Source: Minisyncoccota bacterium
Lineage (GTDB): Bacteria; Patescibacteriota; Minisyncoccia; Phycocordibacterales; UBA918
Reading direction: 5' to 3'
Length of the DNA: 40,976 nucleotides
NCBI GenBank assembly: GCA_022841645.1
Contig: JALHRC010000012.1
Span: forward strand, 1-40,976
Shown: piece by piece, positions 7,440-24,450 of the stretch
How positions within the stretch are numbered: the first letter of the stretch is position 1
How the letters are laid out: each line of letters starts with the position of its first letter
Translations under genes and position numbers: made by a program
Notes under the pieces: generated by a model
Told to the model about the DNA's origin: nothing
What the model saw: only the letters and a program-made list of their open reading frames with translations
Databases searched by the model: none

Positions 7440-7468
7440 TTGACTAATTTGGTACACTGCGTTACTAT
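7440..7468 (+). promoter_or_regulatory. Strong sigma70-type promoter, apparently leaderless
   Basis: TTGACT (7440-7445), a 17-bp spacer and TACTAT (7463-7468) make the best consensus promoter I see in the window. Only six bases separate the -10 box from ATG 7475, so transcription should start at or next to the start codon. The second half of the early gene run (7475-9235) would be transcribed from it. Confidence 0.65.
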
Positions 7469-7474
7469 TTATGT

Positions 7475-7579
7475 ATGGACAGCACCGAGCTTAAAATTTT
7501 GAACCCGGCGGTTGCCCTAAAAATGGGGCTCATAAACTGGTTCGAATACTTCGAAGCCGTGCGCCAAATACAGGAGTAA
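7475..7579 (+). CDS. 34-residue peptide, first gene after an early promoter
   Basis: The ATG at 7475 opens a 34-codon frame (MDSTELKILNPAVALKMG...EAVRQIQE) that ends four bases before the next gene. No ribosome site precedes it and the promoter's -10 box is six bases upstream, so it would be translated from a leaderless mRNA. The CAGGAG in its last codons serves as ribosome site of the next gene. It could be a leader peptide or a true small protein. Confidence 0.5.
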   Translation: MDSTELKILNPAVALKMGLINWFEYFEAVRQIQE

Positions 7580-9235: not shown

Positions 9236-9297
9236 AGCGCTTACACGGCGCCGCTAAATTCGTCCCTACAATCTAAAGCAAACTCTTGCAAAAAAGT

Positions 9298-9338
9298 AAA
9301 GCCGCCCTCACGATAAAAAGTTAAGGGCGGCTTTATTT
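9298..9338 (+). terminator. Intrinsic terminator closing the early rightward operon
   Basis: AAAGCCGCCCT (9298-9308) pairs perfectly with AGGGCGGCTTT (9324-9334), an 11-bp stem followed by ATTTT. It stands between the last early gene and the first packaging gene, so late transcription needs either read-through, antitermination or a promoter near here. The next gene's ATG begins 6 bases after the stem. Confidence 0.85.
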
Positions 9339-9339
9339 T

Positions 9340-18163: not shown

Positions 18164-18604
18164 ATGAGAAAGTTTATCTGTAAAGGCAACTTTGTTACGG
18201 GCGAAAAAGGCTCGTACGTCCACCACCGTAAGGGCGAGGCGTTCGAACCTAAAGACGAAGCCCAGGCCCAAGAGCTCACTGCCGCGGGCCTCATCATTGA
18301 TCGCGATGAGATCACCGTGGAAGAGCTAGACGGCCTCCAAAAAAAGATCGATGCGGCGAGAAAAGAGCTCGCCGCATTAACGGACCAGTTGAAAACTTTG
18401 CAGTCAAAGCCGCTAGAGCCCGTGCAGAATCCCGCCGGAACCGAACCGAGTGGTGAGGAAGACGAGCCCGTGCAGAATCCCGCCGGAACCGAACCGAGTG
18501 GTGAGGAAGACGAGCCCGTGCAGAATCCCGCCGGAACCGAACCGAGTGGTGAGGAAGACGAGCCCGATTTTGACTATGCAAAAAAGAAAAAGAAAAACCG
18601 GTAA
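18164..18604 (+). CDS. Small structural protein with three identical 16-residue repeats
   Basis: This 146-residue protein has an N-terminal domain (RKFICKGNFVTGEKGSYVH) and a coiled coil (LQKKIDAARKELAALTDQLKTL). Three identical EPVQNPAGTEPSGEED repeats follow, then a basic tail (KKKKKNR). It sits between a structural gene and the DUF1320 connector gene, so a virion or connector role is likely. The repeat region is acidic and probably disordered. Confidence 0.65.
   Translation: MRKFICKGNFVTGEKGSYVHHRKGEAFEPKDEAQAQELTAAGLIIDRDEITVEELDGLQKKIDAARKELAALTDQLKTLQSKPLEPVQNPAGTEPSGEEDEPVQNPAGTEPSGEEDEPVQNPAGTEPSGEEDEPDFDYAKKKKKNR
18416..18559 (+). repeat. Three perfect 48-bp tandem repeats
   Basis: Units 18416-18463, 18464-18511 and 18512-18559 are identical over 48 bp, followed by a partial fourth (GAGCCCG). 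They are in frame inside the preceding gene. Perfect identity at all positions indicates recent expansion or gene conversion. Confidence 0.95.
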
Positions 18605-20259: not shown

Positions 20260-21141
20260 ATGGGCTTAAGCAATCCGCGTTCCACATACGGCATCCACTC
20301 GGCATCGCCGTACAACCGCTCTACGGGGCTTTTTTACGGCACGATGAAAGTGCTCGATTCTTCGAGCCTCTCGCTCACCGCCGAGCAAAACGACCTAACG
20401 GGCGGCTCTAACAAGTATCCCTGGGCTTCTGAAGACGGCGCGATCTCTGCGGAGATGAGCCTTAAAGTCGGCCAAATGGAAGATTTTATGTTTGAGCTTT
20501 TCCTAGGAAAAGCCCCCACCGCCCAGTCGGCTGAGACAAGCGGAAACGTGAGCACGCTCACAAATAAAAACGGCACCTCCGTGGTGGCCGCTACCGGTAT
20601 CGCTAGCGTGTCGGCTATCACCACGACTGGCCCCGCTAACCTGAAGTTTGGTAAATACGTGGTTAAAGCTATGAGCGCCACCACGGTAAAAGTTTACCAC
20701 TCGACCGATATTGACCACGCTCGCGGCACTGATGTCGAGTACGCCGACGACCAGCTCTCTGTTACCGCTTCGGCTCTCACGATCACCACGGGCGCGGATA
20801 CCAATATCGCCGCCCTCGGTGTAAAACTCGTGGGCGGCGCGGGCACCATTGGGATGACCACCGGTGATACCGCTACCTTCGAAGTTCGCCCGATCAACAC
20901 CAAGAGCATGGGCGTTCGCATCGGCGCCGCTGCCGACGTGTTCCCGGAGTTCGGCTGTATCATTATGGCCCAGCAGCGCTCGACCGGCGAAATGTTTGAA
21001 GTGGACGCATTCCGCTGCAAAGCTAGCGGCATGCCCATCGGCTTCGAAGCCTTCGCTTGGAACAAGCCCGAAGTAAAAGCCAAGCTGCTCTACGATAGCG
21101 TGAAAAACGGCGTATTCGACGTACGCCACGTGACGCCCTAA
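20260..21141 (+). CDS. Major tail tube protein
   Basis: The 293-residue protein sits directly before the tail chaperone and tape measure genes, the position of siphophage tail tube subunits. It is beta-rich: DSSSLSLTAEQNDLTGG, EDGAISAEMSLKVGQMEDFMFELF, and FPEFGCIIMAQQRSTGEMFEV, which fit a tube fold that can carry an Ig-like insertion. AAGGAAGGGG gives a strong ribosome site. A strong terminator follows. No sheath gene is nearby, so the tail is non-contractile. Confidence 0.8.
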   Translation: MGLSNPRSTYGIHSASPYNRSTGLFYGTMKVLDSSSLSLTAEQNDLTGGSNKYPWASEDGAISAEMSLKVGQMEDFMFELFLGKAPTAQSAETSGNVSTLTNKNGTSVVAATGIASVSAITTTGPANLKFGKYVVKAMSATTVKVYHSTDIDHARGTDVEYADDQLSVTASALTITTGADTNIAALGVKLVGGAGTIGMTTGDTATFEVRPINTKSMGVRIGAAADVFPEFGCIIMAQQRSTGEMFEVDAFRCKASGMPIGFEAFAWNKPEVKAKLLYDSVKNGVFDVRHVTP

Positions 21142-21153
21142 CTGCTAGAGATA

Positions 21154-21191
21154 AAAGCCCGCTCCGGGGGGAACCGGGGCGGGCTTTACTT
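21154..21191. terminator. Bidirectional intrinsic terminator after the tail tube gene
   Basis: AAAGCCCGC (21154-21162) pairs with GCGGGCTTT (21179-21187), and inner CCGG/CCGG extends the stem to about 13 bp. T-rich sequence follows on both strands (ACTTTTTT on the plus strand, TTATCT on the minus). It would limit rightward transcription after the tail tube gene and end leftward transcription from the small RHH gene, whose stop codon lies inside the stem. Confidence 0.85.
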
Positions 21192-21335
21192 TTTTGCGGC
21201 GATGCTAGAGCGGCGCACCCACTCGGACACGTTACCGTTGGTGTACGCGCTGGCCAGGAATCTAAGCCGCGCCCACTCTTCGGAGTTAACCCGGATCTCT
21301 ACCGTTTTTGTACGGACGCTTTTTTTCTTTCCCAT
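21186..21335 (-). CDS. 49-residue ribbon-helix-helix protein, antisense in the late region
   Basis: The minus strand from ATG 21335 encodes a 49-residue basic protein: a basic start, a strand KTVEIRVNSEEWARL, and a helix-turn-helix-like NGNVSEWVRRSSI. This strand-helix-helix pattern and size fit Arc/CopG-type RHH DNA-binding proteins. It is the only leftward gene in the 4.7-34.4 kb region. No ribosome site is present; a promoter at 21342-21370 places its -10 box 6 bases from the ATG. It likely regulates phage transcription or itself. Confidence 0.65.
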   Translation of the reverse strand: MGKKKSVRTKTVEIRVNSEEWARLRFLASAYTNGNVSEWVRRSSIAAKK

Positions 21336-21341
21336 GTTTGC

Positions 21342-21370
21342 ATTATGTAGGGACACGCCCTAAACTTCAA
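21342..21370 (-). promoter_or_regulatory. Leftward sigma70 promoter for the RHH gene
   Basis: On the minus strand TTGAAG (21370-21365), a 17-bp spacer and CATAAT (21347-21342) precede ATG 21335 by exactly six bases. The -10 box matches five of six consensus positions and the -35 box four of six. The same 6-base geometry occurs at the 7440 promoter, suggesting a leaderless transcript. The -35 box lies just upstream of the plus-strand chaperone start at 21374. Confidence 0.55.
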
Positions 21371-21373
21371 TGC

Positions 21374-21907
21374 ATGAAACCTGTTTCAATAGAAGACGTA
21401 ATCCCGGCGGCGCCTGAGTTTTTCCTAAAAAGAAAAGATCGGTTTTTTGAGATCCGCCCACCAAACATGCTCGACCAAGTTTGGTTCAAAGAAAAGTATC
21501 CGGGGGATGAAACCCTAGGCGGCATTTTGCAATCCCTCAACTGGCAGGAGATATGCAAAATCGTGTACCGCCTGCTCACCCCCGAGGCGCGGGCGGAGTT
21601 CCCGGCTACGGTCGCAAAAGACCTGGACGAAAACGGCGAGCCCACCGAAATGAAGCTCACCGGCCCCGAGCACTTGCTAGTTTCTCTGGGTGACCTAAAC
21701 GAATGCCTCGGGATGCTAACCGCGCTCACCCGTGCGATCATGCTCTCCAACCCCCTCGCCGCGGAAATGGTGGAGAGCGAGGTAAAAAAAAGTCTAGCGG
21801 CGATCAAGACGCAGGCCGTAAAACGTCCGGGCAAACCGACTGGGCACAAATCTTTTTCGACCTCCACGACGCGTTCGGCTGGTCGAAAGAATACATCGCG
21901 TCGCTAA
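21374..21907 (+). CDS. Tail assembly chaperone, short form (gpG-like)
   Basis: This 177-residue protein lies immediately before the tape measure gene, the usual place for a tail chaperone. I chose ATG 21374; an in-frame TTG at 21308 would add residues antisense to the RHH gene. It starts MKPVSIEDVIPAAPEFFLKR and has the PNMLDQVWFKEKYPGDE and NWQEICKIVYRLL segments. A run of eight A bases at 21784-21791 allows a -1 frameshift into the longer form. Confidence 0.8.
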   Translation: MKPVSIEDVIPAAPEFFLKRKDRFFEIRPPNMLDQVWFKEKYPGDETLGGILQSLNWQEICKIVYRLLTPEARAEFPATVAKDLDENGEPTEMKLTGPEHLLVSLGDLNECLGMLTALTRAIMLSNPLAAEMVESEVKKSLAAIKTQAVKRPGKPTGHKSFSTSTTRSAGRKNTSRR

Positions 21908-22131
21908 CGCCCAGATACATTTCTCTTCAGCTAGAGCGCCTCGGTGCTAGGATAGAAAGAGACGTAAGGCTACAGGCATCTTTTCACGGCATCCAGCTAC
22001 CCGAAGGCCCCGCGGCCAGGGCGGCGGGAGAGAATGAAAAACCTGTAGAGCTCACGCCTGAGCAAGAGGCCGCGGTTAAAAAACAACTGGCCGATGCGCA
22101 GGAACGCATTCGAGCGAGGATGAAAAAATAG
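21374..22131 (+). CDS. Tail assembly chaperone, frameshift fusion (gpGT-like)
   Basis: A -1 slip at 21784-21790 joins the first 139 codons of the short form to a 113-residue extension, about 252 residues in total. The extension (TDWAQIFFDLHDAFGWSKEY, ending QERIRARMKK) is typical of the T domain in tail chaperones: WSKEYIASLTPRYISLQ recalls the Y-x-x-x-P region. The extension ends directly at the tape measure start, as in lambda-like phages. The fusion should bind the tape measure and recruit tail tube subunits. Confidence 0.8.
21784..21791 (+). promoter_or_regulatory. Slippery A8 site for -1 programmed frameshift
   Basis: In the zero frame the heptamer A AAA AAA (21784-21790) fits the X XXY YYZ rule exactly. 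The two lysine codons AAA-AAA can re-pair one base back. Slipping by -1 opens the frame that ends at 22131, just before the tape measure. Without the slip, translation ends at 21907. Confidence 0.75.
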
Positions 22132-24450
22132 ATGGCAAAAGAGCTCGTAATACGCATAAACGGCGACGTGGCCGGGTACTCCGAAGCCCTAAACGAAGCG
22201 GCTGGGCAAACCGAAGAGCTCGGCTCGACGCTCGATAAAGTCACCATTGCATCCGGCCTGGCTTTCGCCGCTCTCACCGCAGAAATTTACTTGAGCGTAA
22301 AGGCCTTCAACGTAGAAGCGCTGGCGGTCGAAGAAGTAAATCAGGCCCTTCAAAACCAAGGCATTTTTACCGAGTCGCTCGCCCGCTCGTACAGGCGCGT
22401 AGCCGAGGAGATCGAAGCAAAAACCGGCGTCGATAGCGACTCGATCTCCAGCGCCCAGGCCGTGGCCCAAGGCTTGGTGGGGCAAATTGAGTTAACAGAC
22501 GATCTCACGCGGGCCGTAGTGGACCTAGCGGCCCGCCAGAAAATCGACGTTAGCTCGGCCTACACCCTCGTGGCTAAAGCCGTAAACGGCAACGTGGTGG
22601 GCTTGCAAAAGCTCGGCATTGAGCTCGACGCAACGGGCACCAAACAAGAGCGGCTGCAAGATATCACCGACGCGCTCTCCCAGCGCTACGCGGGCGCCGC
22701 TGAAGCGGCGTCGAAAGCCGCTGGCTCAACGGTTCTTTTAGAGTCGGCTTTTGGCAACTTGCAAAAAGAGATCGGCAAAAGGTTCGCGCCGCTCTTTGAC
22801 ACCGTGGTGGGGGCGCTCACCAGCTTTATCGACACGATCAAGGACAGCAAAGCCCTCACCGATTTTACTGTTTCCGTTATCGCCGCCGGCGTCGCGGTAT
22901 CCGGCGCGGGCCTTGTGGCGGGCGTTGCCGGCGGGCTCTATTTAAAACTCAGGGCCGCTTTGATCGCCGCCCAAGTAGCAACCGGCGCCATGACAATTGC
23001 CACCAGGGCCTTGGTGGGCGCCACGGGGTTGGGCCTCGTGGTGCTTTTGCTCACAGAAATATATTTAAACTGGCAAACTTTTTGGCCCCGTATGCAGGCC
23101 ATCTATAATGCCTTCGCAAACAATATCATAGAAGTCGCCAAGGGTCTGGGCAAAATCCTCTACGCGGTTTTCACACCCTCCACCAGCAGCTTGGCCGATA
23201 TCCAGGCCGGGGCTAAGCAGGTGGCCGACGCTGTAAAAAAAGGCTACGCCGAAGCCACGGCTAGCACCGAGCAGTTTGGCCCGCCCGTGCCGGGCGCCGT
23301 TCAAGACCCCGGTAAAAAGGGCGCGGCGGATGCCGCCGCACAAAAAGAAGCTGAAGCCGAAGCCAGGATGCTGGCCACAAAAAGGGCGAACCGGGAGCTT
23401 TTGCTTTTAGAGGAAGAAAACGCCTCGCTCGACATGATCGCTCTAAAGAAAAAAGAAGTGGAGCTTCTTAAAACTTTAGAGGATGAAAAGAACGCCGATA
23501 ACCGCGACATCCAACTGCGGCGCCTAGAAGAAAACAGGGCTCTCCAAGCTGAGCAAGAGCAGATAGATCGAGAGCGCCGCATATTAGTTCGAGACGAACT
23601 TTTAGCCGAAAACGAAGCTTTTCAGCAGCTAACTGCTGAGCAGCAGCAGCGCTTTATCGATCAAAATATCCAAAAGTTGGAGCAAGACGCCCTCACCAAA
23701 AGGACGATAAAAGAAAAGGCCGCCCAGGAAGAGCTCAAAATACAAATTGAGGCAAACAATAGGTTCCTGCTGGAGCAACAAAAATACGGAACGGCATACG
23801 CCACGATAAATAAGGCGATGCACACCGCCGTTTTTCAAGGTAGCAAGACCGCTTTCGGCGAGCTCGCGGCCTTGCAGGAGAGTTCAAACTCTACGCTAAA
23901 GAGCATCGGTAAGACCGCGGCGGTTGCAAACATTATTATTAAAACCGCCGAGTCGGCTATGAATATTTACGCCGGCTTTTCCACCATTCCGATCATCGGC
24001 CCCGCGCTTGGTGTGGCTGGCGCCGCGGCGGCTATCGCGTTCGGGGCTGAGCAGGTGGGCAAAGTTCGCGGAGCCGCAAAAGGCGGTCTTGCAACGGGCG
24101 GGGTCAAGGGCGTTGATTCCATTCCCTTTATGCTTCAAGACCAGGAGCTAGTGGCGCCTTCGAAAAATTTCGAGGAGGTTATCGGTTCCGTGCGTGCAAG
24201 CCGCGAGGCCCAAAAGTTTTTACCCGACGGCGGCTCGGGCGCAGGGGGCGGGGGAGATCCGCAAATGCTGGCGGTCCTAGAGTCGATCGATTCTAAGCTC
24301 TCACAGCCTAGCCAGGTGTTCCAAATCCAAGGGGACGTACTTTCCGAAGAATCTTTTATGCAAACTTTTGCGCAAAAACTCTCGGACGGTATACAGTTCG
24401 GTAACCTAAAAGTTTTTGGAGTCAACGGATTTAACGGGGTAACTTCTTAA
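22132..24450 (+). CDS. Tape measure protein
   Basis: The 772-residue protein sets tail length and is ejected with DNA. It has the expected features: an N-terminal helical domain (NEAAGQTEELGSTLDKVTIA), membrane-like segments (VSVIAAGVAVSGAGLVAGVA, ALVGATGLGLVVLLLTEIYL), a long charged coiled coil at about 390-560, and a C-terminal glycine/alanine-rich part (GPALGVAGAAAAIAFGAEQV, GGLATGGVKGVDSIPFMLQ). It starts directly after the chaperone stop. By the usual 0.15 nm per residue rule the tail would be near 115 nm. It overlaps the next gene by one base. Confidence 0.92.
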   Translation: MAKELVIRINGDVAGYSEALNEAAGQTEELGSTLDKVTIASGLAFAALTAEIYLSVKAFNVEALAVEEVNQALQNQGIFTESLARSYRRVAEEIEAKTGVDSDSISSAQAVAQGLVGQIELTDDLTRAVVDLAARQKIDVSSAYTLVAKAVNGNVVGLQKLGIELDATGTKQERLQDITDALSQRYAGAAEAASKAAGSTVLLESAFGNLQKEIGKRFAPLFDTVVGALTSFIDTIKDSKALTDFTVSVIAAGVAVSGAGLVAGVAGGLYLKLRAALIAAQVATGAMTIATRALVGATGLGLVVLLLTEIYLNWQTFWPRMQAIYNAFANNIIEVAKGLGKILYAVFTPSTSSLADIQAGAKQVADAVKKGYAEATASTEQFGPPVPGAVQDPGKKGAADAAAQKEAEAEARMLATKRANRELLLLEEENASLDMIALKKKEVELLKTLEDEKNADNRDIQLRRLEENRALQAEQEQIDRERRILVRDELLAENEAFQQLTAEQQQRFIDQNIQKLEQDALTKRTIKEKAAQEELKIQIEANNRFLLEQQKYGTAYATINKAMHTAVFQGSKTAFGELAALQESSNSTLKSIGKTAAVANIIIKTAESAMNIYAGFSTIPIIGPALGVAGAAAAIAFGAEQVGKVRGAAKGGLATGGVKGVDSIPFMLQDQELVAPSKNFEEVIGSVRASREAQKFLPDGGSGAGGGGDPQMLAVLESIDSKLSQPSQVFQIQGDVLSEESFMQTFAQKLSDGIQFGNLKVFGVNGFNGVTS

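Follow-up and report, generated by a model that had tools for sequence, protein, structure and literature searches.

The main finding of this work was the identification of a small antisense cassette within the tail operon of an uncultured phage group, whose product, a ribbon-helix-helix (RHH) protein of 49 residues, probably represses its own synthesis. The window, i.e., the whole stretch of 40,976 nucleotides that was analysed, corresponds to a single contig (G000:C12). The cassette would comprise a late-facing terminator, the leftward RHH gene and a promoter-operator, placed between the genes in the tail tube and tail chaperone positions, names that rest on gene order. We hypothesize that an RHH dimer would bind the palindrome TGT-N3/4-ACA, which overlaps its own promoter and the start region of the second half of the tail operon, and that binding at its own promoter would shut down its own production. 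Several lineages carry contig-specific operator copies approximately 18-53 nt before terS, terL and other late genes, and in these the protein would most likely hold the late block back until its level has dropped or its effect is overridden. We give a probability of roughly 0.6 to this reading, in which a moron-like cassette encodes an autorepressor whose repression extends to late promoters in at least three lineages. From the gene, its fold, the selection on it, its conserved place, the operator motif, the terminator and the remote copies, all read from the sequence, we infer binding of these sites, repression rather than activation, and an effect on timing.

The RHH gene runs on the minus strand from 21335 to 21186 (ATG start, 49 codons and a TAA stop at 21188-21186), between the tube-position gene, ending at 21141, and the chaperone position, starting at 21374. 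The initial annotation had described it as a 49-residue RHH-like gene lying antisense between tube and chaperone genes, and the translation, the predicted fold and the conservation of the frame confirmed this description. A longer frame from a GTG at 21356 was rejected and the ATG at 21335 preferred, since the former start would put the operator within the gene. A chance open reading frame was also rejected, on conservation and selection; close pairs within one clade displayed dN/dS ratios of 0.08-0.18 (distant pairs, with ratios of 0.4-1.2, are saturated and were left out). The AF2 model of the monomer (mean pLDDT 90.4) has an extended N-terminus followed by helices at residues 18-31 and 36-46, which is the arrangement that characterizes the RHH superfamily, a short N-terminal strand and then two helices. 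As revealed by a structural second look, 18 of 21 rows bore the name of an RHH protein, with ArtA (Z 6.2) and Arc (Z 5.6) at the top and NikR, MazE and ParD among the others. Every Foldseek E-value exceeded 1 and none was significant, so that the fold assignment draws on the confidence of the model, on this second look and on Pfam matches. The NikA-like family of Pfam (PF21983) matched 22 of 44 members at E 0.01 or less (best 6.5e-9), the window protein staying below the curated cut-off with 21.9 vs. 27 bits, and the NCBIfam families MbpA and MobA matched 7 and 5 of the 44. The only sequence match with a solved structure was NikA (2ba3), a weak one (E 0.87). Taken together, structure prediction and profile search favour an RHH fold. 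A role as the antitoxin of a toxin pair was considered and rejected, as the window has no toxin gene adjoining the RHH gene and antitoxin families gave single weak matches among the 44 relatives.

The first relative, with 45% identity, was found antisense at the corresponding place of a 4-kb virus contig. A search with the tube-position gene (293 aa; 20260..21141, plus strand) confirmed 100 loci in the virus collection, of which 80 were retained; one Bdellovibrionales assembly and the window brought the set to 82. An iterated HMM run over 12,778 stop-to-stop ORFs detected the RHH gene in 54 loci and gave no match elsewhere; all 54 genes lie just downstream of the tube gene, on the opposite strand. 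With a divergent copy recognised by eye in L015, the antisense gene is present in 55 of 75 judgeable loci, the count leaving out seven loci whose sequence extends no more than 154 nt past the tube gene, and the frame is therefore conserved in relatives. The gene is missing from 19 of the 75 (15 of these were inspected, while L021, L055, L062 and L063 rest on a missing HMM match) and hence is dispensable; the remaining judgeable locus, L017, was counted as neither present nor absent. Where the gene is missing, the tube and chaperone genes are 3-45 nt apart in 14 of the 15 loci inspected and 181 nt apart in the other one. On the tube tree, presence (54 rows) and absence (19 rows) are explained by 5 changes, vs. 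16.9 for shuffled labels. The tube genes of three members had no match among cultured phage records, and the RHH proteins of two members had none, or only weak scattered matches in the case of the window protein. This phage group, without match among the cultured phage records searched, is known from environmental DNA alone. Some cassettes hold extra small antisense genes between tube and RHH genes (five in L013; also L011, L043, L044, L030, L040, L079, L008 and L032), two of which are common to L030 and L044, one with zinc-finger-like cysteines and histidines. In L030 (7407-7928, minus strand) an RHH domain is fused behind a stretch that was recognised by eye as GIY-YIG-nuclease-like, and in L026 a long HNH-like-looking frame lies upstream of the RHH frame.

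A terminator hairpin facing late transcription occupies 21154..21187 of the window on the plus strand, with 14 pairs and a T-rich tail (ACTTTTTTGC), and two of the three bases of the RHH stop codon fall within it. Termination in the minus direction scores as well, at a weaker level, which bears out the initial claim that the stop codon lies inside the stem of a bidirectional terminator. Among 40 loci (four with gaps above 420 nt were omitted), a late-facing terminator between the tube and RHH genes was predicted in 23, vs. 4.1 in shuffles, and one in the opposite direction in 5, vs. 1.6; of 13 loci devoid of the RHH gene, one has such a terminator. With a late-facing terminator after the tube gene, the cassette splits the late operon in two, although not universally, since the tube and RHH genes are 12 nt apart or less in 7 of the 40 loci. 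The divergent gap also shows a mild excess of promoter-like sites, towards the chaperone gene (21/34 vs. 13.6) as well as towards the RHH gene (18/34 vs. 12.0). These data support a regulator located midway along the tail operon. The accompanying suggestion, that this regulator could adjust the ratio of tail tube to downstream proteins, stood in part, given that the split operon fits it whereas a promoter towards the chaperone gene is only mildly enriched.

On the minus strand, a promoter-like sequence (21342..21370; TTGAAG at 21370-21365, a spacer of 17 and CATAAT at 21347-21342) matches the sigma-70 consensus at 9 of 12 positions, no more than chance gives. Its place in the chaperone leader, proposed from the outset, is upheld because relatives carry the operator there. 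The predicted transcription start falls on or beside the RHH ATG, which is preceded by no Shine-Dalgarno sequence; both window genes that face the divergent gap lack one, unlike most other genes of the window, and this would fit very short leaders. The predicted operator, TGTCCCTACA (21355-21346, minus strand), lies 20 nt before the start codon and overlaps or touches the -10 element. Within the 110 nt upstream of the RHH start codon, 20 of 43 loci have the motif TGT-N3/4-ACA, vs. 1.9 in dinucleotide shuffles (maximum 6 in 300 shuffles), and this motif ranks first among all the trinucleotide half-sites tried. Controls yielded 1/82 before the tube gene, 0/82 and 2/82 within it and 0/43 within the RHH gene, and the stretch 110-220 nt further up gave 7/43. 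When the whole divergent gap plus 15 nt of the gene was read, the motif was found in 29 of the 43 loci, vs. 2.84 (maximum 8 in 200 shuffles). These 43 loci exclude six near-copies (L033, L041, L045, L047, L078 and L084), L019, which has too little sequence, and L015, L026, L028, L030 and L042, for which no start was set. A symmetric repeat at 21348-21362 (TAGGG-N5-CCCTA) was discarded as the operator: it is unique in the window and not above chance as a pattern, and the relatives favour TGT-N3/4-ACA.

The core of the operator varies with the strand residue located two positions before a nearly invariant arginine. In counts that ignore kinship, glutamate at this residue goes with TGTCC in 3 of 4 cases (0 of 22 others), glycine with TGTTAAACA in 3 of 4 (1 of 22 others) and histidine with GAT/ATC in 5 of 6 (1 of 20 others). 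The combination of K-E with TGTCATGACA is common to L009 and L024, which stand apart in the tube tree. This covariation, together with the L009/L024 pair, gives the strongest indication that the operator may be read by the RHH protein. RHH proteins act as dimers that contact DNA through their paired strands, a mode on which the covariation bears indirectly. As for the sense of the regulation, RHH activators exist, and the recurrence of operators at late-gene starts would also be expected if the protein were an activator or timing factor of the late promoters and no repressor. In the window, L065, L067 and L082, however, the sites at the RHH promoter overlap the -10 element or lie directly downstream of it, which is the position of a repressor, and an activating role seems to us quite improbable.

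In addition to these sites, longer stretches of 18 contigs were searched, each with its own operator and allowing one mismatch at most. This yielded 17 extra copies, one of them inside the own promoter; operators taken from other contigs would give 3.1, and shuffled operators 4.6. Of the 16 copies outside the own promoter, 8 are noncoding or at a 5' edge, vs. 2 of 41 matches in 236 non-self pairs, and 0.15 noncoding copies would be expected where 8 were observed. In L040, one copy lies 35 nt upstream of terS and another 24 nt upstream of the protease-position gene; L044 has one 53 nt upstream of terS and a second in a divergent gap. L065 has copies 18 nt upstream of both terL and terS, L070 has one 18 nt upstream of a methylase gene adjoining terL, and in L077 a copy immediately precedes terS. 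The sequence at the corresponding position upstream of terS is TGTTTAACA in L065, TGTTATACA in L070 and TGTAAAACA in L072; an A-to-T change in the RHH operator of L070 recurs before both the methylase gene and terS. L030, from the clade of L040 and L044, keeps TTGTCCGTACAA 36 nt before terS, and its nuclease-fused RHH gene has no such site itself. The copies at terminase genes are limited to three lineages (L030/L040/L044; L065/L070/L072; L077), and in these relatives they point to regulation of the entire late block. Neither the operator nor its remote terminase copies were part of the earlier reading. An unguided local alignment of RHH-upstream with terL-upstream stretches returned mostly noise. 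In L006, a promoter-like segment of about 85 bases occurs twice, about 800 and 450 nt before terL and ahead of two successive genes, and contains AAACATAAT, as does the RHH operator region.

The distribution of these copies bears on a rival explanation, in which the cassette is an autonomous moron, RHH represses its own promoter only (sometimes with a few adjoining small antisense genes) and the terminator merely insulates. Most contigs fit it: 11 of 17 with a readable operator and a terL-upstream stretch had no clear copy there (L006, L013, L022, L024, L035, L036, L037, L038, L061, L082 and, at the stringency used, the window), and none of five further contigs, some of them short, had a clear copy. 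About a dozen loci with one to five extra small antisense genes adjoining the RHH gene look like accessory cassettes, and the 19 loci without the gene point in the same direction. Nevertheless, the excess of noncoding remote copies over the non-self controls, their location at terS and terL, and the joint change of remote sites and RHH operator in L065 and L070 argue against it, and we hold this explanation to be unlikely, if the least improbable of the alternatives. The sites near terS could instead mark a cos or pac region served by a packaging or relaxosome-like accessory protein, an idea encouraged by the nearest named family, that of the mobilisation protein NikA, and by the MbpA and MobA matches. 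Since the commonest site lies at the RHH gene's own promoter, far from terS, and L040 and L044 have copies ahead of a protease-position gene and within a divergent gap, respectively, we judge such a role to be the least probable of all. A bolder version of late-block repression may also be formulated, according to which the late operon would carry an antisense mid-operon repressor of its own start; RHH would shut the terminase and tail promoters, and late transcription, once escaping, would run counter to the RHH gene and silence it, creating a toggle for late timing or a lysogeny-like state. This toggle is doubtful, and we offer it tentatively.

Of the sites predicted in the window, the self-operator alone is firm, and the remote ones are suggestive. 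An operator-like CGTCCCTACA with one mismatch (9261..9270, plus strand) falls in the gap preceding the terS-position gene, and an operator-like TGTATGGACA (7472..7481, plus strand) lies at the predicted start of the promoter TTGACT-17-TACTAT (7440-7468); three matches with one mismatch or less arise in 10 of 100 shuffles of the window. The terS-position gene had no Pfam match. Also before this gene, positions 9288..9339 (plus strand) hold a repeat of the stretch that joins the RHH 3' end to the start of the terminator (GCAAAAAAGTAAAGC-CGCCC, 20/21), followed by a hairpin. The repeat in this gap (9236-9339) reached a score of 35, the best among 1,336 other segments being 28, and 9288-9339 is possibly the relic of a second RHH cassette.

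The window encodes a Mu-type portal (PF06074), a terminase (PF03237/PF17289), a family A DNA polymerase, a DUF2800 protein and an Enc34-type ssDNA-binding protein, and thus represents a tailed phage or prophage. A tape-measure protein (22132..24450, plus strand) was recognised by PHROG 3336 (E 1.4e-14). The tube gene had no convincing Pfam or PHROG match, and the gene in the chaperone position (21374..21907, plus strand) was assigned by gene order and by a slippery A-AAA-AAA read from the sequence at 21784-21790; its product had no PHROG match and, used as a query, found no relatives. A -1 shift predicted at 21784-21790 would enter a frame that terminates at 22131, an arrangement like that of G/GT tail chaperones. 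Of 26 virus records, 2 encode an integrase (PF00589), as does the Bdellovibrionales assembly, one integrase of which scores exactly like that of L029 (48.2 bits, 386-aa frame), so that some members at least may be temperate. The composition of the window compared with five stretches of its own assembly did not decide if the phage contig is part of the same genome; the assembly (G000) measures 1.1 Mb and those of relatives mostly 0.6-1.0 Mb. Two helicase-like genes, alike and not identical, lie one at each contig end (195-1817 and 40118-40975, minus strand), and the protein encoded at 18164-18604 has three 16-residue repeats (EPVQNPAGTEPSGEED).

Some known systems resemble the one described here. 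The Mnt gene of P22 is leftward, and Arc and Mnt are RHH proteins; as in P22, the RHH gene of the window lies inside a late operon. The immunity I region of P22 ("ant moron") is reported to be an independently expressed group with the repressors Mnt and Arc, inserted in the late operon just before a tail gene, with a supposed influence on how far late RNA polymerase reads through into the tailspike gene (PMC2629481). Here, in contrast, the RHH gene lies between tube and chaperone genes, usually alone; its divergent neighbour in the window and the loci inspected is the chaperone position and not an antirepressor gene, and operator copies precede the terminase genes. The searches made found no sequence similarity to the P22 system. 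With NikA/MobC-type proteins, the likeness is one of sequence, PF21983 being the best family, and autoregulation of an operon by its MobC has been reported (PMC4175270). The place differs, since the RHH gene belongs to a phage late operon and no relaxase or oriT was seen near it. We also compared the cassette with those of the Aca repressors, which control anti-CRISPR operons. These are small autorepressors with an inverted-repeat operator, on accessory cassettes among the structural genes of phage late regions, and those characterised are mostly helix-turn-helix proteins. Our cassette shares with them a small predicted autorepressor and an inverted-repeat operator, but most of the cassettes have no second gene and some loci carry the extra small antisense genes. 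As phage morons do, it is present or absent at one operon place (54 vs. 19 rows, 5 changes) and brings a terminator (23/40) and a promoter-operator (29/43). A literature search, with subscription papers largely outside its scope, found no precedent apart from the P22 region.

Our findings provide a candidate regulator of 49 residues, for which both the DNA site and a recognition code are predicted, in phages without a match among the cultured records searched. The operators of L065 and L070, changing together, amount to a small natural experiment on RHH specificity. If late-block repression by this autorepressor is right, one protein encoded backwards in the late operon would couple the packaging genes, the tail genes and its own dose, in a layout that would resemble the immunity I region of P22 but extend to the start of the late block.
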